49,613 nucleotides of DNA from Pseudomonadales bacterium (GTDB lineage Bacteria > Pseudomonadota > Gammaproteobacteria > Pseudomonadales > Azotimanducaceae). Location: the NCBI GenBank assembly GCA_028281005.1, contig JANQKS010000019.1, positions 1 to 49,613 on the forward strand, in the 5' to 3' direction. Position 1 is the first letter of the stretch. Each line of letters starts with the position of its first letter. Below, one piece after another: positions 28,058 to 49,613 of this stretch. A program made the translations under genes and the position numbers. Below the pieces are notes generated by a model. It saw nothing but the letters and a program-made list of their open reading frames with translations, made no database searches and was not told where the DNA came from.

Positions 28058-29167
28058 GTGCCGGAATTGTTGTCCGCAGAACTGCAAAACCTCGCCCAGA
28101 CTTGCCACACTTTTGCCACACAAGTACTGCTGGAACAGGGGGATAAACCAGCAGCCGAAGCTCGCGCCAGCGTGCGCGCAGCCGCCAAACGGGCCGGTCT
28201 ATTTGCCATGACGCAGCCGCAAGAGTTTGGCGGCAGCGCTGCGAGCCAACTGGCACTGTGCGTCGCGCGCGAATCCCTGGCGGCCCACAACCCCCCCTAC
28301 ATGGACGCCGTATTTGGTCCCAGCCCCGGGGTGTTGGGGAGTGTCACAGACCCGCTCAAAACGAGCCATCTGGAACCGTTGCTGGCGGGGGAGAAACGCG
28401 GCGGCTTCGGTTTCACCGAACCAGATGACGCGCCCAAGCCGACCAGCGGCGTGATCGACGGTGACAGCTTGATTGTCACCGGCCAGAAATCTTACGTCAC
28501 CGGCGGCGCGGATGCGGACTTCATCAACACTCTGGTACAGGTGGAAGAGCGCGGCGCGTCCATGGTGGTGATCGATACCCATCTAGACGGCGTCCACCTG
28601 GAAAAAAAGTTCACTTCACTAGATGGCTCCCACCACGCAGCTTTTCAATTTAATGGCGTGCGCGTGCCGCTCCACCAGGTGATCGGTGAACCGGGTAAAG
28701 GTTTACCCAAGGCGATGCGGCAAATTGGCGACACACGTTTGCTGATTGCCGCGCAAGCCAGCGGCTACATGCTGTGGGTGGTGGATCTGCTCACCACCCA
28801 TCTCGCCGCCAAAGACAAATCCGGTGAACCACGCGGCAACAAAGATGTGGTGCGGCTGCGTTATGCAGACCTGCGTATCAAGGCTTATGCGGCGCGCAGT
28901 ATGTTGTATCGCACGGCGCGGCTGGCGGATGCCGATGAGAACATCGTCAACGAAGCCATGGCTTGTAAGGTGTTTGCCACGGAGGCCGTGGGTGAATTGG
29001 TCGACACTGGCATACAACTGGTGGGGGGAACCGCCCTGATGGAAGGCCACCCATTGGAGCGGCTCTATCGACAAGTGCGCGCCTGGCGCTTAGCTGAAGG
29101 CGCCAGCGACGTGCTGCGTTTAAACATAGGGCGCGGTATCCTCGAACTCGGCAAGGGCCGCATCTAA
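28058..29167 (+). CDS. acyl-CoA dehydrogenase family protein
   Basis: A 369-residue flavoenzyme. It has the ACAD layout: helical N-terminal domain with AAKRAGLFAMTQPQEFGG, middle domain with GFGFTEPDDAPKPTSG and a GQKSYVTGGADAD loop, and C-terminal domain ending RLAEGASDVLRLNIGRG, where the family FAD-binding segment lies. Start is a GTG at 28058 with TAGGGA eight bases upstream. Glu in the EGAS motif is in the position where many ACADs read EGTS. It probably works on a side chain or fatty acid different from that of the ACAD at 16 kb; the substrate is unknown. Confidence 0.9.
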   Translation: MPELLSAELQNLAQTCHTFATQVLLEQGDKPAAEARASVRAAAKRAGLFAMTQPQEFGGSAASQLALCVARESLAAHNPPYMDAVFGPSPGVLGSVTDPLKTSHLEPLLAGEKRGGFGFTEPDDAPKPTSGVIDGDSLIVTGQKSYVTGGADADFINTLVQVEERGASMVVIDTHLDGVHLEKKFTSLDGSHHAAFQFNGVRVPLHQVIGEPGKGLPKAMRQIGDTRLLIAAQASGYMLWVVDLLTTHLAAKDKSGEPRGNKDVVRLRYADLRIKAYAARSMLYRTARLADADENIVNEAMACKVFATEAVGELVDTGIQLVGGTALMEGHPLERLYRQVRAWRLAEGASDVLRLNIGRGILELGKGRI

Positions 29168-37633: not shown

Positions 37634-38761
37634 CTAGAACAGTTTTAGTTGCGCATCCTGGGGGTGGCTCGGCCGCTGAAACAAATCGGTACGCAGCTCG
37701 GCAAACTCAGCTTGCGGCAAACCCGCCCGGGTAACGGCTTTGTTAAAACGCTGCTGAATCAGCTGCGCAATTTGCCCCTCACCCACCATGCGCTTATGCC
37801 ACTCGGCGCGATACGCGCGGCCGCCACGAGTGTCGCGTATGGCCGCCATCACTCGTTCGGCCTTGAGGGGATAATGATTGGCCAGCCACTCTTCAAATAG
37901 CGGCTGCACTTCCAAAGGCAGACGAATGAGGATATATCCCAACGCTTGAGCACCCGCCTCGGCGCAAGCGCTTACCAACGCTTCTATTTCGCGGTCATTC
38001 ACAAACGGAATGATGGGAGCGAGCATCGCGCCGGTTGGTATACCCGCTGCACGCAGCTCCGTAATGGTGCGCAAACGCGCTTGTGGAGATGCCGTGCGCG
38101 GCTCGAGCTTGGTTTTGAGCGTATTGTCCAGCGTGGTCACACTCACATGTACGTAGGTCAGCCCTTGGGCCGCTAGCTCCGCCAATAAGTCAATGTCGCG
38201 CGTGACCAGCGCACTTTTTGTGACGATGCTCACCGGGTGCTGGCATTCGAGCAGGGTTTCCAGCACCTCGCGCATGATGCGCCGCCGCTTCTCCGCTGGT
38301 TGATACGGGTCGGTATTGGTGCCAATGGCCAACGGGCTGCATTGGTATTTGGCGTGGGACAGTTCCGCCAGCAAGTGTTCGCGCACGTCGGTTTTGTAAA
38401 AGATCTTGGTCTCAAAATCCAAACCCGGTGACAGGTCTAGATACGCATGTGTGGGCCGTGCAAAACAATAAATACAGCCATGCTCACAACCTTTGTAGGG
38501 ATTGATTGACTGGCTAAAACCGATGTCCGGCGATTGGTTTTTGGTGATGATCGAGCGCGTGCGGTCTCTGAAAAACTGCGTCGCGATCTGCCAGGACTCA
38601 TCTTCTGTTTCTATTCCTGCCCCTGCCCCTGTCCCTGTACTCGACCACCCGTCGTCAACCGCTTCGCTACGTGCCGCGATGTAGCGGCTTTGGTCGTTAC
38701 TGCCGCTGCCGCGCCCTTTGCGCACAACTCTGTGGGAATGAGGTAAGTCGGGTGGCGCCAC
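37634..38761 (-). CDS. PA0069 family radical SAM protein (SplB-like)
   Basis: A 375-residue radical SAM protein. The cluster motif is Cys92-x3-Cys96-x2-Cys99 in YKGCEHGCIYCFARPTH; the region TNTDPYQPAEKRRRIMREVL and the later AIRDTRGGRAYRAEWHKRM are typical of the PA0069/Rv2578c group, distant relatives of spore photoproduct lyase. A Gly/Thr/Ala-rich insert at ~40-50 comes from a short hexanucleotide repeat. The function is unproven; a DNA-damage role is suggested because a promoter with a LexA box lies directly upstream. The GTG at 38761 follows GGAG. It is the last gene before the base composition changes. Confidence 0.92.
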   Translation of the reverse strand: MAPPDLPHSHRVVRKGRGSGSNDQSRYIAARSEAVDDGWSSTGTGAGAGIETEDESWQIATQFFRDRTRSIITKNQSPDIGFSQSINPYKGCEHGCIYCFARPTHAYLDLSPGLDFETKIFYKTDVREHLLAELSHAKYQCSPLAIGTNTDPYQPAEKRRRIMREVLETLLECQHPVSIVTKSALVTRDIDLLAELAAQGLTYVHVSVTTLDNTLKTKLEPRTASPQARLRTITELRAAGIPTGAMLAPIIPFVNDREIEALVSACAEAGAQALGYILIRLPLEVQPLFEEWLANHYPLKAERVMAAIRDTRGGRAYRAEWHKRMVGEGQIAQLIQQRFNKAVTRAGLPQAEFAELRTDLFQRPSHPQDAQLKLF

Positions 38762-38793
38762 GTCCGGCTCCGGATGTTCGAAACGGACGCATA

Positions 38794-38822
38794 TTTATAA
38801 CTGTATATGTATACAGTATCAA
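38794..38822 (-). promoter_or_regulatory. sigma-70 promoter with a LexA box in its spacer
   Basis: On the minus strand TTGATA (38822-38817), a 17-base spacer and TATAAA (38799-38794) precede the radical SAM gene. The spacer is CTGTATACATATACAG plus one base; read on the plus strand, 38800-38817 is a perfect dyad ACTGTATA-TG-TATACAGT, matching the CTGT-N8-ACAG SOS box. LexA bound there would block polymerase directly. Confidence 0.88.
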
Positions 38823-39434
38823 GAGCGAATTCCAGGAGTATAGATATATCCGGCGGAAATTAACACTACATGCCCCCAAACTGATGGCCGTGGAATTGAG
38901 TTTATTGGCTGGAGCTAGGCGTGAACTAAGTTGTTCCATGTGCACTTCTCCGACCAACACTGAAATCGAAAGCATTACCTTTCCTATGCGACTGCATATA
39001 GGTGAGCGATTAGAACAACTTTCTTCGAATTTCAGACCAGTCTGCTCAACCGCTGAAGCGGACGTTCAGTTAGGTCGAAAACACCTACTCGCTACTCACA
39101 CTTTCGACCAGGAAGAGACATTCGCTAGTTTCCTAAACCGACCCAAATTAGCGGTTAGAGCAGTGCGGACGTTTATCCTACGCAACAAGTTCAGAATAGG
39201 ACGTTTCCTTAGCAATAAAAGAGATTCGCAGTTTTGCATGACCTTCATTGTTAGTGAGAGACTAGCCACCATTCCTACCTGTAAACGGGCTCTCTACTTT
39301 GTGTCCAGCTAATTGCCTGACATCTTCTCTAATACGAATAGCACCATCGATAGCGACGCAAACACGCTTTAGGTAAGGTGCTTCATGATAAGTGGAATCT
39401 GCACGACCAAAAGTGCCTCAAAGAGGCAATACAA
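38823..39434. other. long gap without a convincing gene; change to A/T-richer DNA
   Basis: About 610 bases between the SOS promoter and the kinase start. A frame is open on the plus strand to 39312, but it would begin inside the radical SAM gene, has an unnatural composition and no recognisable domain, so I do not call it. The base composition falls from the G/C-rich style of the left side to the A/T-richer style that continues to the window end. The stretch may be a decayed junction of inserted DNA. The only signal seen is the hairpin at 39414-39428. Confidence 0.5.
39414..39428 (+). promoter_or_regulatory. hairpin covering the kinase ribosome-binding site
   Basis: TGCCTC, loop AAA, GAGGCA forms a perfect 6-bp hairpin. 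GAGG in its right arm is the probable Shine-Dalgarno, eight bases from the ATG at 39435, so folding could limit kinase translation. Confidence 0.4.
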
Positions 39435-41912
39435 ATGAGCGATGCGCTACATTCGGCATTAACCATCTTCAGTCGGGTAATTGCTAAGAACGAGTTAGCT
39501 TCCTGGGAAGCATTCGAATCAGAATGCTTTGGTGATGCAGACCTCGAGGCATCTGTTAGAAGGTTGTACGATGTTGATATCGCACTACAAGGCGGTTCCG
39601 TTGAAGATCGCACCGCCCATCTTGCAAGACATTTCAGTATTGGAATCGCAGCAGCGAGTCATTCGATTGCGACGGAGGAATTGGATCTATCAGGTTCCCT
39701 CGTAGACGGATATCAATTGATTGAGCGCATTGGGACCGGAGGAATGGGAGAAGTGTATCGCGCACGTAATGAAGCTGCGGGTTTCAAACACGAAGTTGCA
39801 CTCAAGCTCATGCGACCCATGGCGGAGTTTTCAGGCGGACTAGAACGATTCGAAAACGAGCGACGACTTCTCGCTCAGTTGAAGCATCCAAACATCGCTG
39901 CGTTATATGACGGTGGGTACACTGATAGTAATCACCCATATTTCATTCTTGAACTTATCGAAGGGCGTTCTATCGACCGTTACATAGAAGATGAATCTGT
40001 TTCTCTAGAAGGTGTTCTCGAGATCTTCACAACCATCTGCGACGCCGTCCAGTTTGCCCACTCGCAACTCATCGTTCACCGCGATCTAAAACCAAGCAAC
40101 GTACTAATCGATTCAACCGGGAGAGCCAAACTTTTAGATTTCGGGATCGCCAAAGAAATTGCTATGGATTCTGCAGACTCAACTGTCGCGATGGACATTG
40201 CCTTAACACCTAACTTCGCCAGTCCGGAACAGTTGTTAGGACAACCTATCGGTACTTCTAGCGACGTTTATTCGCTAGGTGCCTTGTTGTTTAGTTTGTT
40301 AACAGGGAGGCCGCCCCATGACATGAGTGGCGTAAACCCGCCAGAAGTCTTGCACATAGCGAGTGATGTATCGGCACCCAAAGCGAGCGATTCAGTCTCA
40401 ACCGCGAAGGCTAGTTGGAAGAAAGCTCTGACAGGAGACCTAGACACCATTCTCGCTAAAGCACTGGAAAAAGATGTTGGCCAGCGTTACGGATCAGTAG
40501 ATCAGCTGGTAGATGACGTTCGGAGATTTCTGAACGGCGAACCGATACATGCTCGACCGAGATCCGTGAGTTACAGAACCCTCAAATTTGTGAAACGTAA
40601 CTCCGTCATAGTGGCAGCAGGAGCTATAGTCCTGGCATCGCTGATTGGAGCGTTATATTACACGACAGAGCAGAACAGACTTACCAACCAAGCATTAACT
40701 CGCTCCCAAGCTACGAGTAGATTTTTAGCTGAAATCCTGTCCGCGCCAAATACCAACTGGAACAGCACGTTGAAGGCCGGGCAAAGCGCGTCGATGCCCG
40801 AAATACTCGCGCTTGCAGCCGAAAAGCTGGTTGCTGATGAACACTTAGCACCCGCAACGAAAGTAGAATTGTACATGGCATTGGGTTTAGCACTTCAAAC
40901 ATGGGACGACCTTGATAAGTCGCTGGATGCGACACTCCTTGCGGTGGAGATTGCCAGAACAGACTTGCCTCCTGAGCATCCACTACAAGAACGAGCGCGA
41001 TTCGACGCAGCCATCGCGTTAGATCTCACCCGCGATCAGGCAAACGCAGAACTATCGACACAACTTTTGACTGAAGCTCTAGAGTGGATAGAAACATACG
41101 CTCCCAATGACTTGGTTCGACGAGCAGGCGTTATCTCAGAGTTTGGCTACAACGCTCATATAAAGGGGGAAAATCGGGAAGCAATCAGAATTTATCATGA
41201 GGCACTAAATCTAGCCCTGGATAACGGCTATCCGCCAGTCTCACCCCGCGTTGCACTAGCTTATGGACTCATTGCCAGAAGCCACGAGATGCTTGGTGAG
41301 TTTGAACATTCTATGACCTACCTAGAGAAGTCTATTAATACTTACGAGGAAGTTGGCGGATCCATCTCAAGTAACGAACGGGCGTTCATGGGACATATGC
41401 TTCGGCATAACATATTGCGAACGGATCTCCCATCAGCTTTCAAAAGCGCTGAAGCGCGGTTAGTCAGAACGCAAAGTGACCCTCAGGACGTATGGAGCAA
41501 CCGCGACCTCTACTCCATGGCTGCCTATATCTTTGTTCGGGCGGGAGAACTGACAAAGGCAAATGAAGTACTCAATCTGTTGGATAAAGCCAAACCCAGT
41601 GAGGTCAACCTACGCACCCTTGATCTATCAGAGATTGCGCGTGGTGCATGGTGGGTAGCCAACAACAATCCAAATGAGGGTCTCGTCGCTTTGGAACTTG
41701 GAGGGCAACGGCGTGCCCCAGAGAACGCCCTCTTTAGTTATTACGTCAACCTTGGTGCCGCAAACGTTGCTAATGGAGATTTCGAAGCGGCAGAGCTTGC
41801 GCTTAAGAATGCAGCCGACAACCACCCGCCCATGCTGCTAGATAACAGTGTACTTGGCCAGCACTATCAAAACGTACGTGCCTCGATAGAAGAGGCTGTT
41901 CAAAGCGATTAA
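39435..41912 (+). CDS. transmembrane serine/threonine protein kinase with TPR-like exported region
   Basis: An 825-residue Hanks-type kinase. After ~90 unassigned residues comes the kinase: Gly loop RIGTGGMGEVYRA (98-110), Lys124 in VALKL, catalytic HRDLKPSN (215-222, Asp217), DFG at 235-237, SPEQ at 263-266 and the SSDVYSLGALLFSLLTG helix. All catalytic residues are present, so it should be active. One membrane helix lies at ~390-409 (SVIVAAGAIVLASLIGALYY). The remaining ~415 residues are helical TPR-like repeats on the far side of the membrane, probably a protein-binding sensor. The ATG at 39435 is used; an in-frame upstream start at 39378 is possible. The sigma-factor gene follows after 56 bases. 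Confidence 0.93.
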   Translation: MSDALHSALTIFSRVIAKNELASWEAFESECFGDADLEASVRRLYDVDIALQGGSVEDRTAHLARHFSIGIAAASHSIATEELDLSGSLVDGYQLIERIGTGGMGEVYRARNEAAGFKHEVALKLMRPMAEFSGGLERFENERRLLAQLKHPNIAALYDGGYTDSNHPYFILELIEGRSIDRYIEDESVSLEGVLEIFTTICDAVQFAHSQLIVHRDLKPSNVLIDSTGRAKLLDFGIAKEIAMDSADSTVAMDIALTPNFASPEQLLGQPIGTSSDVYSLGALLFSLLTGRPPHDMSGVNPPEVLHIASDVSAPKASDSVSTAKASWKKALTGDLDTILAKALEKDVGQRYGSVDQLVDDVRRFLNGEPIHARPRSVSYRTLKFVKRNSVIVAAGAIVLASLIGALYYTTEQNRLTNQALTRSQATSRFLAEILSAPNTNWNSTLKAGQSASMPEILALAAEKLVADEHLAPATKVELYMALGLALQTWDDLDKSLDATLLAVEIARTDLPPEHPLQERARFDAAIALDLTRDQANAELSTQLLTEALEWIETYAPNDLVRRAGVISEFGYNAHIKGENREAIRIYHEALNLALDNGYPPVSPRVALAYGLIARSHEMLGEFEHSMTYLEKSINTYEEVGGSISSNERAFMGHMLRHNILRTDLPSAFKSAEARLVRTQSDPQDVWSNRDLYSMAAYIFVRAGELTKANEVLNLLDKAKPSEVNLRTLDLSEIARGAWWVANNNPNEGLVALELGGQRRAPENALFSYYVNLGAANVANGDFEAAELALKNAADNHPPMLLDNSVLGQHYQNVRASIEEAVQSD

Positions 41913-41968
41913 ACGTGAGTTTTTTGATGATGTAATATTCGTCGTTTACTCAGACAGCTGGGGACATT

Positions 41969-42520
41969 GTGGGAAAGCCTACAGAACTATTGCACCGATG
42001 GAAGGATGGCGATGAAGCCGCAATCCACGAAATCATCGAGCTCCTCTACGGCGAATTGCGCATAGCTGCTGTCAGCCAAATTCGTAAACATCGGGATGCC
42101 CGCTTACAACCAACAGAGCTAGTCAACGAAGCATACCTCAAACTGCGCAACCTAAACGAAGTTGATTGGCAAGATAGAGTTCATTTTATCGCAATGGCCT
42201 CCAAGGCAATGCAACAGGTATTACTCGACATTTATCGAAAAGAAAACGCAAACAAACGAGCCCACGACAAGGTCACACTTGTTACGAGTGTTATTGCAGA
42301 AGAAGCGGAATCTGAAGAATTTGAGTTCGAACAACTCGTTCTAGCGATGGAGGAACTTGCTTCCACAGCACCTGATTTACACGAGCTGGTGAGCCTCAAG
42401 TTCTTTGGCGGACTGACGCACAGCGAAATAGCAGAAATCAATAGTGTTTCCACGATCACCATTAAGCGGCGTTGGCGAGCTGCACGCGCGTGGCTATTTG
42501 ACCGTTTGGTTCAAGGTTAA
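41969..42520 (+). CDS. ECF-type RNA polymerase sigma factor (ECF43/TIGR02999-like)
   Basis: A 183-residue sigma factor. Region 2 spans ~10-95 (ELLHRWKDGDEAAIHEII, LQPTELVNEAYLKLRNLN, VHFIAMASKAMQQVLLDIYR) and region 4 ~125-178 (LVSLKFFGGLTHSEIAEINS, then TIKRRWRAARAWL as the DNA-recognition helix). Where most ECF factors have an acidic DAED-like stretch in region 2.2, this one has QPTEL with Thr49, the pattern of factors activated by Ser/Thr kinases, such as EcfP with PknT in Vibrio parahaemolyticus. No anti-sigma gene is adjacent. Start is a GTG at 41969 with GGGG five bases before. The last 27 bases overlap the convergent protease gene. Confidence 0.92.
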   Translation: MGKPTELLHRWKDGDEAAIHEIIELLYGELRIAAVSQIRKHRDARLQPTELVNEAYLKLRNLNEVDWQDRVHFIAMASKAMQQVLLDIYRKENANKRAHDKVTLVTSVIAEEAESEEFEFEQLVLAMEELASTAPDLHELVSLKFFGGLTHSEIAEINSVSTITIKRRWRAARAWLFDRLVQG

Positions 42521-43165
42521 GTTGTTCAACCATTCTTCAACTTCTTGACCCGGAATCGCAAAACCCACGCCACTACCCACTGGACCACGCCCGGTCACAA
42601 TCCCTAATACCTTACCCCGTTGATCAACCAACGGCCCACCAGAGTTACCAGGATTTATAGCGGCATCGGTTTGTAACAAATTTTGCTGACCGATCGCAGG
42701 CGCTAAGGCGCTGATTATTCCCCGAGTAACTGAAATACCTGACCCGAACGGATTACCAATCACATAGACGGGCTCAGCCACCTGAGGTGTGCGTGCGCGA
42801 AATGCCATCGGCGAACCCAATTGAAAACTATGCGATTCGAACAGCGCCACATCAAGAGCCTCATGGCTCGCTATCAAGGTGAGTTTATGACGGCGGCCAT
42901 CATGGACAAGATATAGCGGTTGTTTAGAAAGCACATGAAAATTGGTTAGCACCTTCTGTTCTTCGATGAAAAACCCACTTGCAATCCCTGTTGATTGATT
43001 CGCAATTGAAACAACCCCAAACACCGCATCATTGATTGGATTATTAGCCGAGCACCCGATCAGTGCAAGAAACGCGCAAAGCAGATGTATGAACAAAACC
43101 CGCCGCCCATGAGAGGCAGCGGTTGCACGCCTATGGTTCACTTGGCAACAAAGGGAAGAACGCAT
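42494..43165 (-). CDS. trypsin-like serine protease, probable lipoprotein
   Basis: A ~223-residue S1C-like protease with the full triad: His77 in VLTNFHVLS, Asp105 in HEALDVALFES, Ser175 in NPGNSGGPLV. No PDZ domain follows, unlike DegP/DegS. The N-terminal part has a hydrophobic segment ending LIGC (Cys38) then Ser, a lipobox directing to the outer membrane. The start is unsure: ATG at 43165 overlaps the end of the large gene by 35 bases, a longer frame begins at 43210, and a TTG further in would give a better-length signal peptide. It is encoded directly downstream of the giant secreted protein on the same strand and ends inside the sigma gene in the opposite direction. Confidence 0.85.
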   Translation of the reverse strand: MRSSLCCQVNHRRATAASHGRRVLFIHLLCAFLALIGCSANNPINDAVFGVVSIANQSTGIASGFFIEEQKVLTNFHVLSKQPLYLVHDGRRHKLTLIASHEALDVALFESHSFQLGSPMAFRARTPQVAEPVYVIGNPFGSGISVTRGIISALAPAIGQQNLLQTDAAINPGNSGGPLVDQRGKVLGIVTGRGPVGSGVGFAIPGQEVEEWLNNLTLNQTVK

Positions 43166-46100
43166 AGACACCGGAATACGTTTGCCCTGTTGCAAGGTCT
43201 TCAACCACAATCAAAACTGGCGCTGGAAATGGCAACGCCGAGTGGGCGATCGGGATGCCACCGCTAAGCACAAGCTGGGCGCACTCTGGATTTACATCGA
43301 AAAAACACCCGCTGTACACCGCACTCACCTTGCTATCTTTATTGCCATTTTGCGATCCCTGCGAAGCCGCGTTTGCGATGTTTTCGCTCAGCTCAAGCGT
43401 ATCCATCATTGTTGATGGTGGCTCCAATGCTGCACCGACGATCTGTTCTACAACGCCTTGATAAAGATCTGGGCCAACAACTCTGACCTTGTACGCGCGG
43501 CCCACTTGGGTGAAGCCAACGCCTTCTATAATCGAACTGGGTACTGTAAAAACATGGAAGCTCTGCGTCGTACCAGCCGTAATAAGCGCGGTTAGCTCAA
43601 GCGGCGATTTCTCTGCTTGTAAAATGCCCGCATCTCGCATCACCAGAGCAGAAGACACAACTCGCGCAACATAGTTGGCGTAAAAGTTTTTAATTATGTT
43701 CATGCGGATCGATGTCGCAGAAAGCATTCCGCCTAGAGTAAAGAAGGTTGGTCTGATGTCTTCGTAAAACTTACCTGGCCCTTCGTATGCATACATTTCG
43801 TTCACTCTGGTATTGTTATATGCGATGCCGTTGTCCGCCAGTATCCCAAGAATAAAATCAATGTCTTGAGCCACACGCTCTGGAATGGTTTGTGCTAACA
43901 GTGCGTAGGTTTGGCCATTAACCGCAAGCTGATTACCCACTCCGAGATTCAAAGCGAGTAGCTGGTCGACCGCTAATTGCAAGTTTTCGTTGATCGCGGT
44001 TGCTCGCACATCGTCGTTGCGCGCTCGAGCCGGATCCAACAGATTGACATAGTTGTTAACCTCACTAAGCGCATCCTCCAACTGATCGATAAGTCCCAGA
44101 GCTGCGCCCAAATTGGACCCACCAGACGGAAAACCAGCACTACTTGCGTCGGCATTCGTGGGTAAGAATCCCTGCTCTGGCGCAAACGGATTCCGCGTAG
44201 CAAGCTCCTCCACATCAATCCCAGCACGTAGTACCACGAGTTGTTGCGCCAGTGCCTGCGCGGTCACTAGATCACCCATGTCCAAAGCCTCCGCTAAATC
44301 ACTAAGAGTGTCAGTGGCTTGATCAATCGTGCTTGCAAGCTGAGCAATCGGCGCATGGTAGTCATCCGCCGCAAACGATTCACGCACAATAACCGTAACC
44401 GTTCGCTCGCCAAATCCGGGCACTTCCACCCTCAGATCAAACGGGCCGCGGGTGTCAGAACTCGTGCTTACGACTTCGCCAGTCGTGCTAGGTGGCGTCC
44501 CACCTGCCCCCGTTTGACCAGAGACAATAACATTTAGAGGTGGAAGCGGCAGAACCGGAAATCCATCGGTATCAAACACGTCAATGGCCAACGCTGTAGA
44601 AGTACTCGCCTCAACAAAATGATCGACAATACGCACTTTGAGTGCGGGTCCGGATGAAACCACAACATCTACAAGATCACCTAAGGCTAATTGCGTGCCA
44701 GGTGCTTCCGATTGCGAGATGATCAGTCCCTTAGGTACTGTATCGCTATTGATAGCCCCAATCGCACCAAGAGCCAAGCCAATATCGTCTAACTCGGCGA
44801 TGGCTGTAGACGTATTTAGGTTAGCCAAGGTGGGGACAAAGATTGGTGGCGGTCCTAGGGAAATCACAAAATCGATAAATGCGCCGGATCCCGCTTGCTG
44901 TCCTCCCGCGATGCTTTGCGAGATGACCTGCCCCGCTGGTACGGTAAGACTATAGTTTTGCGTGACGCTACCCACAGCCAGCCCTTCATCTTCTAGTGCT
45001 TCGTTGGCATCAGATTCTTCAGAACCTAGGATGTCCGGCACCGTAGCAGGTGGCTGAACGTTGATCAGGTAATCTTGGGTATCGGAGTTACCTTGGGCAT
45101 CCGTTACAACTAAATTCACTCGTGCAGAACCGAGATCCCCTGGTGTGGGGGTCCAAGACACGATACCAAGTCCGCTCACAACCATGCCAGATGGCGCATC
45201 CACCAAAGTCCAGGTAAGGCTATCACCGAAGTCCGCATCTGTCGCAAAAGCTGGATATATGTATTCAAAGCCAGGCGACGCCCCTAGTTGCGGGTTTGAT
45301 ACGATAGTAGGCGCGTTGACTGTCGCGATGGCGATACTGACTGTCGCATCCTTGGAATCAGCATTCCCGTCATTCGCCACGTAGCTGAATGCGTCACTCG
45401 CGGACGCGTCTTCTCCAGGCACAACGGTTGCAACGTTAAATTTGTTGAGGCCAGGAATAAGCCATTGTGGCTGTATGTAGGTGGGGATTGAGCCATCTTC
45501 CGCCACATGCGTTGGATGCGAAAGCCATTGATTGCGCAGTGGACGAGCGGGTGGCAGTGGATTACCAGCCAGACCTTCCAGCACTCGTACCGTCTCATCA
45601 AAGGCAATACGAAGTTTTTGTACAACTTCTGCGGCACCGTCCTGGTCAATATCAGCTATCGTCAGATAACCGTTCTCGCGCGTATCTCCCTGACTTACCA
45701 AATCATCGCGGGCTCGCTCAGTACCGTCACCATTCAAGATGTATATACGACGCGCATCGGGCTCGTTAGCGTTACCCATGTTAAGTACTAGCTCATCTAT
45801 GCCATCACGATCTATATCGAAAGCCATTGGAACCGTCGAGGTTTCTGCGGAAGCTAGAAACGTATACACGAAATCAGTGTTTTCATGTGTCCACAAAACA
45901 CTTCCGTCTTCAATATTAAAGGCTGCCAGGTTATAGGTTGTGGAGGTACCAGCATCCCCAAAGAGATAACCTTCGTGAATGACATATTCAGCATCAGGAT
46001 CCCCGTCTAACTCGCCAATCGTAACCCCTCCAAATAGCGGACCGGAAGAAAGACGAGCATTTCGCCACTTAACAGTGCCGTTGTGCTCATAGACAGTATG

Positions 46101-48605
46101 GCCGTCAACATCGATGGCAACAATCTCAGCGAACGGATCGTTATCCGCGTTAACAACTGCCATGTTCAAGTAACTCACATCGCCAGTTTGCGGAAGTCGA
46201 AACTCCAACTGGCCATTGTGATCCAACACCGAATCTCCAAAAAGGATTTCTGGTGTGCCATCCAAATCGATGTCAGCGATCACCCAATGAGCGGCCTGAG
46301 AACTGATCGGGTTAGCGAGATTCGGGGAAATGTATTCCCACAATACCGAGCCGTCACTCGCATTGTAAGCGAAGACGCCTGGATTGAACGTACCTCCCGC
46401 ACGATTTAGACCCACGACCAATTCGATCTGACCATCTCCGTCAAGATCTACTGCGCTAGGTAAAAGATCAGAGAACGCACCCGCCGCTAGAGAAACTGAC
46501 GACAATTCTTCAGAAGCGCCGTTACTACCCCAGACTGGCGAGCCATCCAAATTGAACGCCATTAAACGCGCACGTGGACCTAATGGTTCGGCCAAGAAAT
46601 CACTGCCACCGCCATACGTGGTGACAATTTCCAATTCTGCGTCCGCGTCTAAATTCACAAGCAGCGCTTGACCACCGCTGAAAGTTTCGCCGTAGTTGTT
46701 GCCGCCAAGATCTGTCCATTCTCCACCTATTGGTTTGGGTTGGCAGGTTGCACCGTCATAGACCAGCGTCACGCTGCGACTATTTGCAGAGGTACCAATA
46801 ACAAGTATTTCTACGTTCCCGTCTCGATCGACGTCGGCCACATTGACGTTCTGCGACCTGGACGAACCGGCAAGGCCTTCGGTTTGACACTGTTCGACCA
46901 AACCGACCTCTATCGGTGGAATAGGCGGAGGGGAATACTGAAAAGACCCATCGCCATCAAATGCATCAAGCGTGCCTAACGTCGGAACGCTAGTTTCCGT
47001 CGCCACAAGCAGATCGTTATTTGCATCGGTATCGTTTTCCAGCACGCCAGGTGCGGGAATAGTCAGTAAATCTCGATGCCGAACCGTATACGCATCATCT
47101 ACGGCTACCGGGGGCGCCGGGGGCTCAAGCACGGTAACCATGAAGTTCGCATTGTCCGTTGCGCCGTAAGAGTCGGTGACTGTGGCGGTTAAGTTTACGG
47201 TGCCTGCATCATCTGTCCCTGGCGTCCATGTCAGACTAGCCGATTGTGTATCAAACTGCAGACCCGCCGGGGCACCCGACAAACCAAAGGTAAGGATGTC
47301 ATTTGCATCCGGATCCACAGCACTCAGTGTTAGGTTAAGCGTAGATAGAGCATTAACCATCTGATCCGGAACTGGCTCGATTGTTGGTGCCATATTGGCG
47401 CTCTCCGCCAACACCGTCACGCTGAACATAGTGGAGCTCGACAGACCACCCGGATCGCTAGCACTTAAAGTGAGCTCCGAGCTACCGAGTTGATCCACGT
47501 TTGGCATCCACTCAAGCAACCCAGTAGTCCCATTCAGCGCGACTCCATCAGGCGCGCTCACCACGTTGAAATATAGATTTTCACCTTCCGGATCTGAACC
47601 AGAGACAGACAAGGTTAACTTCTGTCCAACTACCACGGTTTGATTGGCGATGGCATCAATGGATGGAGGTTGATCATCCGATCCGTCATTAACAGCAACT
47701 TGAAAAATCTGACGGTCCGTTAGGCCGGTAAGATCCGTCACAAGCAGGTCAACATCAAAGATTCCTGTGTCAGAGGGTGTCCAGCTGATCAACCCTGAGG
47801 CGGCATCCATCACCATGCCGAGAGGTGCAACTTGTAGTGCATAAGCAAGCACATCCCCTGGATCAGCATCGGTGGCATTCACGTCATATGCATAGCTTTC
47901 GCCCACACCGATATTAGTAACTGGACTAGTGCCAATGACCGGCGAGTTTTCCGCGCTTACCGTCGCTTCAACTTGGACCACGTCAGGGGGTGAATCAAGA
48001 TCGCCATCGTTCACAACAAGGGTTGCGTTGTAGAGCCCAGGGATATCCGGGGTGAAACTCGTTACGGGTGTACTTGCGTTGCTAAGAATTGCATTGCTAC
48101 CCACGGGGGCGTTAAGTGTCCAATTGTAGCTAAGGCTCTCACCCTCTGGGTCAGATGATCCTGTACCATCTAGCGAGACGAGAGTACCTACATTCACGTT
48201 TTGATCCGGCCCCGCATCAGCAACCGGCGCTTGATTTAGAGGCTCTTCGTTGCCGGTAAAGCTTAAGGCGATATTGCTTTCTCTAAAGCGAAAGCGCCGA
48301 TTGTGGCGAATGGTAATCGTGTCATCGGGAACTAAATTACCGTTTGGAAAATTACCAACATCCAAGGTGCTTTCAACGATGGTGGTTGCGTTTGCTGTAG
48401 ATGATGCAGTGCCACTCACCTCTGTCAGCGCTGCACCAGGATTCACCAAATTTACTCGAATGACATATTCAAACACCGTTCTATTGATACGTTGACTTGA
48501 AACGAATTCGACGCCTGAGACTTCAATGTCTTCTACCCCGCTATATGCAGCTGGACCCCATAACATCACCGACAAGTAAAGTGTCGCGGTTGCGATCATT
48601 CGCAT
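43131..48605 (-). CDS. giant secreted protein with Ig-like, FG-GAP and PASTA domains
   Basis: An 1824-residue protein with signal peptide (1-21). Order: unassigned ~25-120; PKD/Ig-like ~125-215; three putative Ig-like domains at ~219-305, 313-400 and 406-493; the first half of a cadherin-like domain ~497-560 (AVDDAYTVRH, GVLENDTDAN, GDGSFQYSPP); eight FG-GAP/VCBS-type calcium motifs between 591 and 994 (for example DVDRDGNVEI, DLDGDGQIEL, DIDQDGAAEV); the second half of the cadherin-like domain ~1065-1096 (SDAFSYVANDGNAD); another Ig-like ~1098-1184; two PASTA repeats ~1188-1252 and ~1254-1320; an unassigned helical and beta C-terminal ~1400-1824 without an anchor. A surface or secreted binding protein. 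GGGGGTG precedes the ATG at 48605. PASTA domains normally sit on Ser/Thr kinases, and a kinase gene is nearby. Confidence 0.9.
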   Translation of the reverse strand: MRMIATATLYLSVMLWGPAAYSGVEDIEVSGVEFVSSQRINRTVFEYVIRVNLVNPGAALTEVSGTASSTANATTIVESTLDVGNFPNGNLVPDDTITIRHNRRFRFRESNIALSFTGNEEPLNQAPVADAGPDQNVNVGTLVSLDGTGSSDPEGESLSYNWTLNAPVGSNAILSNASTPVTSFTPDIPGLYNATLVVNDGDLDSPPDVVQVEATVSAENSPVIGTSPVTNIGVGESYAYDVNATDADPGDVLAYALQVAPLGMVMDAASGLISWTPSDTGIFDVDLLVTDLTGLTDRQIFQVAVNDGSDDQPPSIDAIANQTVVVGQKLTLSVSGSDPEGENLYFNVVSAPDGVALNGTTGLLEWMPNVDQLGSSELTLSASDPGGLSSSTMFSVTVLAESANMAPTIEPVPDQMVNALSTLNLTLSAVDPDANDILTFGLSGAPAGLQFDTQSASLTWTPGTDDAGTVNLTATVTDSYGATDNANFMVTVLEPPAPPVAVDDAYTVRHRDLLTIPAPGVLENDTDANNDLLVATETSVPTLGTLDAFDGDGSFQYSPPPIPPIEVGLVEQCQTEGLAGSSRSQNVNVADVDRDGNVEILVIGTSANSRSVTLVYDGATCQPKPIGGEWTDLGGNNYGETFSGGQALLVNLDADAELEIVTTYGGGSDFLAEPLGPRARLMAFNLDGSPVWGSNGASEELSSVSLAAGAFSDLLPSAVDLDGDGQIELVVGLNRAGGTFNPGVFAYNASDGSVLWEYISPNLANPISSQAAHWVIADIDLDGTPEILFGDSVLDHNGQLEFRLPQTGDVSYLNMAVVNADNDPFAEIVAIDVDGHTVYEHNGTVKWRNARLSSGPLFGGVTIGELDGDPDAEYVIHEGYLFGDAGTSTTYNLAAFNIEDGSVLWTHENTDFVYTFLASAETSTVPMAFDIDRDGIDELVLNMGNANEPDARRIYILNGDGTERARDDLVSQGDTRENGYLTIADIDQDGAAEVVQKLRIAFDETVRVLEGLAGNPLPPARPLRNQWLSHPTHVAEDGSIPTYIQPQWLIPGLNKFNVATVVPGEDASASDAFSYVANDGNADSKDATVSIAIATVNAPTIVSNPQLGASPGFEYIYPAFATDADFGDSLTWTLVDAPSGMVVSGLGIVSWTPTPGDLGSARVNLVVTDAQGNSDTQDYLINVQPPATVPDILGSEESDANEALEDEGLAVGSVTQNYSLTVPAGQVISQSIAGGQQAGSGAFIDFVISLGPPPIFVPTLANLNTSTAIAELDDIGLALGAIGAINSDTVPKGLIISQSEAPGTQLALGDLVDVVVSSGPALKVRIVDHFVEASTSTALAIDVFDTDGFPVLPLPPLNVIVSGQTGAGGTPPSTTGEVVSTSSDTRGPFDLRVEVPGFGERTVTVIVRESFAADDYHAPIAQLASTIDQATDTLSDLAEALDMGDLVTAQALAQQLVVLRAGIDVEELATRNPFAPEQGFLPTNADASSAGFPSGGSNLGAALGLIDQLEDALSEVNNYVNLLDPARARNDDVRATAINENLQLAVDQLLALNLGVGNQLAVNGQTYALLAQTIPERVAQDIDFILGILADNGIAYNNTRVNEMYAYEGPGKFYEDIRPTFFTLGGMLSATSIRMNIIKNFYANYVARVVSSALVMRDAGILQAEKSPLELTALITAGTTQSFHVFTVPSSIIEGVGFTQVGRAYKVRVVGPDLYQGVVEQIVGAALEPPSTMMDTLELSENIANAASQGSQNGNKDSKVSAVYSGCFFDVNPECAQLVLSGGIPIAHSALPFPAPVLIVVEDLATGQTYSGVYAFFPLLPSEP

Positions 48606-48660
48606 ACCTCACCCCCAGATCTCTATGTTCCTACAGCATCAAGACGCAGTTTTTTTATTA

Positions 48661-48725
48661 AAGGGATCAAATTCGTTTTCAAACTTACATCTTTGTTACA
48701 TTTTCTAGGCTACGCGTGATCCCTT
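48661..48725. promoter_or_regulatory. 9-bp inverted repeat in the divergent promoter region
   Basis: AAGGGATCA (48661-48669) and TGATCCCTT (48717-48725) are perfect complements 47 bases apart, between the giant gene and the divergent PEP-CTERM gene. They could be paired operator half-sites for shared control. The 189-base region is A/T-rich with no assignable -35/-10 pair. Confidence 0.35.
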
Positions 48726-48794
48726 AGCCGGAGGTTTCCCGTCTATCAATAACAACGACAACAAGGCGGTACGCTATCGCTTTTGAGGGGAATT

Positions 48795-49403
48795 ATGAGA
48801 CGAACAAGCCTACGCACCCTTTTACTGCTGCTTGGGTTGGGGTTTGGCCAAGCTACGCTGGCCCAACCGATTTTTTATACGGCGACAGATCTCGTTGACA
48901 CTGGTAGTGGTGATCTATGGCGCTATGACTATGAAATCGCTAACACGACAACGGAAGTCGTAATTGGCCTTTTTGAGATTTTCTTTGACGCAAACGACTA
49001 CGAGTTCATCTTGGACGGTCAGGCACCTAATGAATTCGTTGATGAGTCTACATTCAATGTCGCCGACGGTTGGCTTGGATTTGTTCTCGACGAAGGACCT
49101 TCCCCAGACGAACCGGGGGCGTTCAGTGTCAGCTTTGGTGAATTTTTCGAGGAACCTATGCCTCTCATCTCGCCAGATCCTGGCTTAGCGATTACCAATT
49201 TTTGGATCGAGTTTATTTGGACGGGTGACGGAACTCCAGGCAGCCAATTGGTGAACGCGTACAGCTATGATGACTTATTCGGGCCACCGGTCTTAATGTT
49301 TGGTACTGAAACCCGTGCTCCGGTTCCTGTACCAGAGCCATCTACGTTTGGTTTGCTCTTTCTAGGTATCGCCGCTCTCTTCATGAAACGGCGCCATTTC
49401 TGA
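48795..49403 (+). CDS. PEP-CTERM sorting domain protein
   Basis: A 202-residue exported protein: signal peptide (TLLLLLGLGFGQATLAQP) and a C-terminal sorting signal VPEPSTFGLLFLGIAALF followed by the basic tail MKRRHF, which is the classic PEP motif, membrane helix and positive end cut by an exosortase (XrtA/EpsH), encoded elsewhere. The middle is acidic, beta-rich and rich in aromatic residues (WRYDYEIANTT, FEIFFDANDYEF), like other secreted PEP-CTERM matrix proteins. GAGGGG lies four bases before the ATG at 48795. It diverges from the giant protein and may share its promoter region. Confidence 0.9.
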   Translation: MRRTSLRTLLLLLGLGFGQATLAQPIFYTATDLVDTGSGDLWRYDYEIANTTTEVVIGLFEIFFDANDYEFILDGQAPNEFVDESTFNVADGWLGFVLDEGPSPDEPGAFSVSFGEFFEEPMPLISPDPGLAITNFWIEFIWTGDGTPGSQLVNAYSYDDLFGPPVLMFGTETRAPVPVPEPSTFGLLFLGIAALFMKRRHF

Positions 49404-49527: not shown

Positions 49528-49613
49528 TCAAAAGTAGTTTCTAAGCAAAATCATGATGCATCCGAGGTGAATGAAGCCGAGAAAGTTCTCGGCGTATCTC
49601 TCGTAGCGAGTCA
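49528..49613 (-). CDS. IS5-type transposase, C-terminal end (cut by window edge)
   Basis: The minus strand from the window edge reads RYERYAENFLGFIHLGCIMI then LLRNYF and a stop (TGA at 49530-49528). This is the characteristic end of IS5-family (IS427/IS1031-like) DDE transposases, in which ENFLGFIHLGC is a conserved tail. Only 27 codons are inside the window, so intactness cannot be judged. It borders the A/T-rich segment holding the kinase and sigma genes. Confidence 0.8.
   Translation of the reverse strand, partial: TRYERYAENFLGFIHLGCIMILLRNYF

Follow-up and report, generated by a model that had tools for sequence, protein, structure and literature searches.

The stretch of DNA analysed here (the window; 49,613 nucleotides, contig JANQKS010000019.1 of a Pseudomonadales bacterium) carries a gene for a transmembrane Hanks-type Ser/Thr kinase (825 aa; 39435..41912, + strand), identified from Pfam, NCBIfam, catalytic motifs and hydropathy, and one for an ECF sigma factor of the TIGR02999/PF07638 (ECF43) type (183 aa; 41969..42520, + strand), identified from profile matches. 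The best kinase start is ATG 39435, in a frame open from GTG 39378, and the sigma gene begins at GTG 41969, 56 bases 3′ of the kinase stop. Motifs and profiles agree with a sequence-only reading that had described an intact Hanks kinase gene followed, after that gap, by an ECF sigma gene. The flanking genes encode a PA0069-type radical SAM protein, a Na+/solute symporter, a protease and a giant protein; Pfam and NCBIfam identification of these neighbours revealed no anti-sigma gene, in agreement with that reading, and the 213-aa frame (38671-39312) has no Pfam match at E 1e-5.

The Pkinase domain spans residues 93–356 (Pfam search, E 1.2e-47) and retains all catalytic motifs (GTGGMG at 100, VALK at 121, HRDLKPSN at 215, DFG at 235 and SPE at 263). 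It is preceded by an extension of about 90 aa and followed by a single hydropathy-predicted TM segment at approximately 390–408; the second half (409–825), which is taken to be periplasmic, contains TPR_12 at 574–639 (35.9 bits against a cut-off of 30.1). A predicted model has low confidence (mean pLDDT 48.6) with a poorly built kinase domain, and is usable solely for part of the helical second half, where residues 451–640 form paired helices (block pLDDT 57–89). In the PDB, the kinase domain is closest in sequence to chains of PknB, which together with PrkC and StkP belongs to the PASTA kinases, but PASTA is absent from the window kinase: NF033483 (Stk1/PknB_PASTA) scores 230.6 bits, through the kinase part only, where more than 450 is required. 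PknS of Xanthomonas citri (PDB 9EED) matches residues 87–366 with E 1.3e-42. At 833 aa against 825 here, it has the same order of parts, with an 83-aa N-terminal segment, kinase, TM segment and periplasmic TPRs, and is likewise adjacent to an ECF43 sigma gene, EcfK (PMC13147305). The TPR architecture does differ from that of PASTA kinases, as had been noted, but since PknS shares it, it is not new.

The sigma factor scores 173 bits against TIGR02999 (cut-off 126.15) and E 9.4e-35 against PF07638, profiles which we take to stand for ECF43. Its region 2.2 reads L-Q-P-T49-E50-L. Among 26 sigma factors collected through a TIGR02999 match (25 over the cut-off and one truncated, under it), the Thr49 column holds Thr in all 26. 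By eye, none of eight other ECF-like factors from the same genome, taken from below-cut-off matches, has Thr there; six have D or E at that column and all eight at the next. This difference argues that the region 2.2 Thr is a family trait and not chance, in line with its conservation in 88% of ECF43 factors (PMC13147305). The accompanying claim that the negative charge of region 2.2 is missing holds in part: the position of the acidic DAED/DxxD motif is occupied by Q-P-T-E, in which Glu50 keeps one acid, as in EcfK (QATE, again Thr then Glu; the two are likened by motif and layout) and as in 15.8% of ECF43 members (PMC13147305).

Because Glu50 is retained, and because EcfK with the same trait remains functional as T51A, Thr49 need not be the sole switch. 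The decisive phosphosite could instead be Thr103 or Thr106 in the sigma2–sigma4 linker, with Thr49 secondary or redundant and Glu50 supplying the charge, a possibility raised for EcfK in PMC13147305. The window linker, KVTLVTS, offers these two Thr and one Ser, Ser or Thr occupies the Thr103 column in 16 of the 26 sigmas, and in EcfK, whose region 2.2 QATE resembles QPTE, linker Thr106 matters too, T51A and T106A together losing function (PMC13147305). However, the linker positions vary while Thr49 is invariant, the linker register relative to EcfK is a guess, and in EcfP of Vibrio parahaemolyticus the region 2.2 Thr is the switch, according to two reviews (PMC8999054, PMC8103513). We regard a linker switch as a real possibility, though on balance an unlikely one. 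EcfP, as described there, is an ECF43 sigma with an STK neighbour, PknT, and Thr in place of a DAED acid, as here, but its STTA motif has no acidic residue where the window sigma keeps Glu50; its regulon is given as the polymyxin response (PMC8999054, PMC8103513). Phosphorylation-activated ECF factors are therefore already known, from EcfP/PknT and above all from EcfK/PknS; these two systems are detailed in the literature and a third, in Hyphomonas, is mentioned. The proposal that the window sigma is an ECF43 factor activated by its adjacent kinase fits in family, motif, neighbour and architecture; the earlier reading is partly supported, its single switch at Thr49 and its TPR layout being points that need qualifying.

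Of the 26 sigma genes, 19 have a kinase homologue no more than about 2.2 kb away, and three of the other seven are cut short by a nearby contig end. The N-terminal extension, which in the window kinase can be aligned over its ~90 residues with that of the kinase in genome G048, is common to 15 of the 19 sigma-adjacent kinases as against 2 of 26 others, adjacency meaning a kinase within ~2.2 kb of an ECF43 gene and frames with too short an N-terminal part for scoring being counted as lacking it. These counts omit from the 19 another kinase close to ECF43 in L066 (without the extension) and one in L046, and from the 26 a short kinase piece in L097. The window kinase is itself one of the four sigma-adjacent kinases that fail the extension profile (E 2.2 when left out of the profile). 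This pairing bears on whether the sigma is governed mainly by its expression or by another kinase, its neighbour acting elsewhere. The genome has 13 kinase matches; several of these kinases resemble the window's in length, have one TM segment and show no sigma match in the surrounding stretch examined, and a second module of the genome has a sigma gene with no kinase on its contig, which ends inside a giant gene. Set against the frequent adjacency and the extension bias, even with the window's own extension scoring too weakly to contribute, this arrangement appears decidedly unlikely.

Convergent to the kinase-sigma pair is an operon on the opposite strand. Its giant protein (1824 aa; 43131..48605, − strand) has Pfam domains of the PKD/He_PIG/Big_9 Ig-like kinds, FG-GAP repeats and two PASTA domains, so that PASTA, carried by the kinase itself in PknB-type systems, is found here in a neighbouring protein. 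Its start resembles a signal peptide by eye, and its C-terminus is a conserved region of ~500 aa without Pfam match, for which a structure predicted from two sequences was unusable (mean pLDDT 37.8). The overlapping gene at its 3′ end encodes a Trypsin/DegS-like serine protease (42494..43210, − strand; possible start ATG 43165; Trypsin_2 E 1.8e-27) with intact His-Asp-Ser motifs and, by eye, a lipobox-like LALIGC. Divergent from the operon is a gene for a PEP-CTERM protein (202 aa; 48795..49403, + strand; Pfam, NCBIfam), which among 97 genomes matches only itself and one protein of its own genome's second module. All three products are probably exported.

Giant genes lie less than 3 kb from an ECF43 gene in four of six giant loci, in four gene orders. 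The protease gene is beside the giant gene in the window, G843 and G870, beside the kinase gene in G489 (4-base overlap), and ahead of sigma and giant in the second module. DegS controls sigma-E, acting via RseA, and here too an ECF sigma gene has a DegS-like protease nearby. On this model the protease might be an input as well as an output, trimming the periplasmic half of the kinase or the giant protein and thereby setting the signal; the placing of its gene beside giant, kinase or sigma genes would fit. But co-occurrence gives no direction, G843 and G870 have giant and protease with no TIGR02999 match at E 1e-20, the protease gene was not seen in the G048 stretch examined, and Pfam and NCBIfam found no PDZ domain. 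In contrast to DegS/sigma-E, moreover, no anti-sigma gene is adjacent. We consider an input role rather doubtful and the protease probably an output.

The strongest new evidence, and a link absent from the earlier reading, is that matching predicted promoters would connect the pair to the next genes. Between 48605 and 48795 lie two predicted sigma-ECF43 promoters, obtained by de novo motif finding and genome search, that point away from each other: TGATCCCTT-N16-TCTT (48641..48669, − strand), 35 bases 5′ of the giant ATG, and TGATCCCTT-N16-TCTA (48717..48745, + strand), 49 bases 5′ of the PEP-CTERM ATG at 48795. They are the only two exact copies of TGATCCCTT-N16-TCTW in the 5.1-Mb genome. Built de novo from four upstream regions, the motif reached 25.2 bits versus 21.1 ± 0.5 for shuffles, none of 40 scoring as high (the PEP-CTERM region, with start 48795, was offset by one base). 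No motif was found upstream of the window kinase or sigma gene. A site at 28613 scores 20.9, but its spacing is one longer and it lies inside an acyl-CoA dehydrogenase gene; we take it as chance.

Variants of the promoter occur in three other genomes and in the second module, where the sequence reads TGAACC...CGCCTW. Five own-genome sites served to train a matrix, which was applied to 20 held-out loci, 19 of them from other genomes. At scores of at least 17 it found 6 sites at the trained spacing versus 2 in all over eight wrong spacings; the preference for the trained spacing weakens at lower scores, the corresponding counts being 6 and 8 at 16 or above, and 10 and 25 at 14 or above, where shuffles gave 2.8 ± 1.6 (largest 7). 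A fixed variant pattern has 14 matches in five sigma-clade genomes (10 of which had helped shape it) versus 8 in 92 others; it is absent from one of the five. Four previously unseen clade-genome sites lie 6–58 bases 5′ of open frames, while six of the eight background sites fall within frames of at least 298 aa. Neither site in the window, with CGTCTW and a shorter T run, fits the pattern; both are tied to it only via the de novo motif and the matrix. G489 has three ECF43 loci, one of them with a giant gene, and none showed the motif, the search at two of them covering just 13.4 and 5.2 kb; nor was it seen in G048, where the giant upstream region lies past the contig end. L071, a giant locus whose genome lacks such a sigma, has a site scoring 15.7 at the trained spacing. 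In the sigma tree a single clade, with support of only 85/84, holds all giant-linked and motif-bearing sigmas, and the motif and its variants co-occur with this clade. Within it, neither trait forms a single group; each needs 2 changes, a figure as low in 59 and 74 of 500 shuffles, respectively.

Together, these results make the giant-protease operon and the PEP-CTERM gene the most likely targets of the kinase-sigma pair. Gene identities, catalytic residues, Thr49 conservation and the promoter motif come from the computation; for phosphorylation, the switch residue, promoter use and the signal at the TPR half, we propose, as the probable reading, that the pair signals in the manner of PknS/EcfK and has a local output. 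On this view the periplasmic TPR half would control the membrane kinase, which would phosphorylate the sigma at Thr49 in region 2.2 and perhaps at Thr103/Thr106 in the linker as well. With this extra charge the sigma would bind core RNA polymerase, and the holoenzyme would fire the two divergent promoters, of which one serves the giant Ig/FG-GAP/PASTA protein together with the lipoprotein-like protease and the other the PEP-CTERM protein. What is new is this probable output, with its target operon, PEP-CTERM gene and predicted promoters; EcfK, by comparison, drives a type VI secretion cluster (PMC13147305). A broader scheme, which we think unlikely to hold as a whole, is that the clade uses its own promoter, TGANCC-N17-CGYCTW, for small local regulons of exported proteins, with the ligand-binding PASTA domains transferred in this module from kinase to giant protein, a secreted output which, with its protease, could feed a signal back to the TPR half, and with the extension docking the sigma.

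Sigma factors activated by phosphorylation have only recently been added to the known modes of bacterial signalling. Given a predicted clade promoter and a compact target operon, the chain from kinase through phosphosite and promoter to output can be tested with one small set of parts, and the N-terminal extension is a specific candidate for the region that selects the sigma.

The giant family looks rare, since it was found in 1/390, 3/206, 3/369 and 1/398 genomes sampled at the order, family, class and phylum levels (overlapping samples, each including the genome itself). A search of genome contigs with the giant C-terminal region gave at least 200 candidate stretches, one of which, in G048, was confirmed; among viral contigs none was confirmed. 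A TIGR02999 factor above cut-off is present in only 9 of the 97 genomes, this one included, and a search of a plasmid collection with the sigma factor returned seven records at 29–39% identity.

The window kinase gene (39435-41912, + strand) is intact and is followed on the same strand, after a 56-base gap, by the ECF43-type sigma gene (41969-42520), as the sequence-only reading had described. The kinase retains its catalytic motifs; a single hydrophobic stretch spans roughly residues 390-408, with TPR matches C-terminal of it. The sigma factor exceeds the TIGR02999 cut-off by 47 bits. Profile scans of the neighbouring genes revealed no anti-sigma gene beside the pair, and Thr49 in region 2.2 was confirmed. 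This column holds Thr in 26/26 sigma factors gathered with the TIGR02999 profile (25 above the cut-off, one truncated and below it). None of the 8 other ECF-like factors encoded in this genome has Thr here; in 6 of them the residue is Asp or Glu. Five QxTE factors (the window, a second module on another contig of this genome, genome G048, and one each from G007 and G025) form one group in the sigma tree with support of 95/91; a sixth row with an acid at the QxTE Glu column, from locus L059, is distant from it.

According to PMC13147305, PknS of Xanthomonas citri phosphorylates EcfK directly, and carries an 83-residue segment ahead of its kinase domain together with periplasmic TPRs. The window kinase shares this layout, with an N-terminal segment and presumably periplasmic TPRs, so the architecture, first read as different from that of PASTA-bearing kinases, is not new. 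Region 2.2 reads QATE in EcfK and QPTE in the window sigma. Activation by phosphorylation, as first proposed for the pair, is a mechanism already known for this sigma family, and it fits the window pair; the accompanying picture of a single missing charge does not extend to the window sigma, because EcfK T51A alone is functional whereas T51A combined with linker T106A loses function. The window sigma linker contains Thr103 and Thr106, candidate counterparts of EcfK T106. The window pair is a further example of the known kinase-ECF43 kind.

An N-terminal kinase extension, scored at E 0.01 with a profile built from the other kinases of the set, was found in 15 of 19 kinases lying within ~2.2 kb of ECF43 genes and in 2 of 26 comparison kinase frames (25 places, no sigma match in the fetched stretch; Fisher 1.2e-6). 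Two further kinases near ECF43 genes, one of them without the extension, were left out of the 19. About 90 N-terminal residues of the window kinase can be aligned with those of the G048 kinase, and it falls below the extension-profile threshold. This segment is a candidate for the part of the kinase that docks the sigma factor. Hanks kinases are numerous in the genome, with 13 matches. Among those on contigs C67, C31, C12, C27 and C97 (loci L092 and L094-L097), three that are 775-919 aa long and have a single TM segment lack a sigma match nearby, and those on C27 and C97 appear broken or short.

The targets of the window pair are probably the adjoining genes. Downstream and convergent lies an operon for an 1824-aa giant protein (43131-48605, - strand) and a trypsin/DegS-like protease (42494-43210, - strand), from which a PEP-CTERM gene (48795-49403, + strand) diverges. 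The giant contains PKD, Ig-like, FG-GAP and two PASTA domains, with no Pfam match in its C-terminal ~500 aa, and may begin with a signal peptide, judging by eye from its first residues; the protease start resembles a lipobox. Apart from itself, the only match to the PEP-CTERM protein in the 97 genomes is the second-module copy.

An ECF43 gene lies within 3 kb of the giant at 4/6 giant loci, in four gene orders. The second module comprises protease, sigma (QATE), a giant that runs off the contig and a divergent PEP-CTERM gene; G048 has sigma, kinase and convergent giant; and in G489 the sigma diverges from kinase-protease, with the giant convergent. Sigmas above the TIGR02999 cut-off are scarce in the three genomes with sigma-linked giants (3, 3 and 1). 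A protease accompanies 5/6 giants, G048 being the exception with none in its stretch. Giant and protease are also present in G843 and G870, which lack any TIGR02999 match with an E value of 1e-20 or below. For comparison, Xanthomonadales T6SS clusters without EcfK/PknS can carry alternative regulators, according to PMC6653060; two frames neighbouring the G843 giant may, from their opening residues, be a sensor kinase and a response regulator. The G870 giant gene is in two frames (locus L072, 1739-6303), reflecting a frameshift or a sequencing error.

The second module shows a repeated TTTGAACCyTTTT, and similar sequence lies ahead of the window genes. When four upstream regions (two giant, two PEP-CTERM genes) were searched de novo, with position free and spacing free from 13 to 18, the noticed sites were recovered at 25.2 bits versus 21.1 +/- 0.5 (maximum 22.4) in 40 dinucleotide shuffles. 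Two of the four regions, those of the window, share one intergenic stretch and are read from opposite strands. The pattern TGATCCCTT-N16-TCTW, composed after the two sites were known, has exactly two copies in the 5.1-Mb genome, both exact matches and predicted promoters in the window (48641-48669, - strand; 48717-48745, + strand). In the second-module region (L012, 8314-9013) an extra motif-like site of 16.8 bits is followed, 79 bases on, by a 206-aa frame that has no Pfam match and opens, by eye, like a signal peptide.

A matrix trained on five own-genome sites only was tested on 20 loci outside the training set, namely L013 of the own genome and 19 loci of other genomes. At scores of at least 17, 6 sites occurred at the trained spacing (L044, L045 and L054) versus 2 for eight wrong spacings together; with the threshold at 16 the counts were 6 versus 8 (12 shuffles: mean 0.75, maximum 2), and at 14 or above 10 versus 25 (shuffles: 2.8 +/- 1.6, maximum 7). 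The sigmas of these three loci belong to the 11-row clade of the window sigma (support 85/84). None of the remaining held-out loci reached 14 at the trained spacing, but a matrix site of 15.7 at this spacing is present at L071, which carries a giant gene although its genome lacks a sigma of this type. At the G048 and G489 loci of the clade the matrix scan found no motif site.

The variant pattern TGANCCNNTTT-N12-CGCCTW gave 22 matches in the 97 genomes, 14 in the five genomes with a clade member (2, 3, 3, 6, and 0 in G048) and 8 in the other 92; its reversed control gave 6 altogether. It misses the window's own two sites, both own-genome matches being in the second module, and 10 of the 14 clade-genome matches had contributed to shaping it. 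The 4 newly found sites all sit 6-58 bases ahead of an open frame, two of these frames having signal-peptide-like beginnings; two of the sites are also overlapped by frames (132 and 211 aa). Most background sites (6 of 8) fall within frames of at least 298 aa (one also directly preceding 83- and 148-aa frames); of the other two, one precedes a 664-aa frame and the other precedes none. Because the variant used to count specificity misses the window's own sites, our confidence in the proposed kinase-sigma-promoter scheme was lowered slightly and remains fairly good. No ECF43 promoter consensus was found in the available literature passages treating ECF43 and promoters, nor any literature combining at least three of PASTA domain, FG-GAP, ECF sigma, serine threonine protein kinase and PEP-CTERM; the motif may nonetheless have been described elsewhere.

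The third ECF43-type sigma of this genome (L013, contig C57, 8237-14783) is preceded by a phosphoribosyltransferase-domain protein gene and lies beside ~450- and ~1060-aa frames, which from their size may be an RND efflux operon; no kinase was found in L013. Homologues of these frames recur by ECF43 sigmas at 4 loci (including L056, L057 and L059), 3 of which have a third frame of ~200 aa. In G025 (L045, 8565-16933), genes for a clostripain-type peptidase, an autotransporter and a caspase/Sel1 protein lie between two ECF43-kinase pairs. At the window's contig end, a short frame (49528-49611, - strand; TRYERYAENFLGFIHLGCIMILLRNYF) adjoins the PEP-CTERM gene and resembles the end of an IS5-type transposase.
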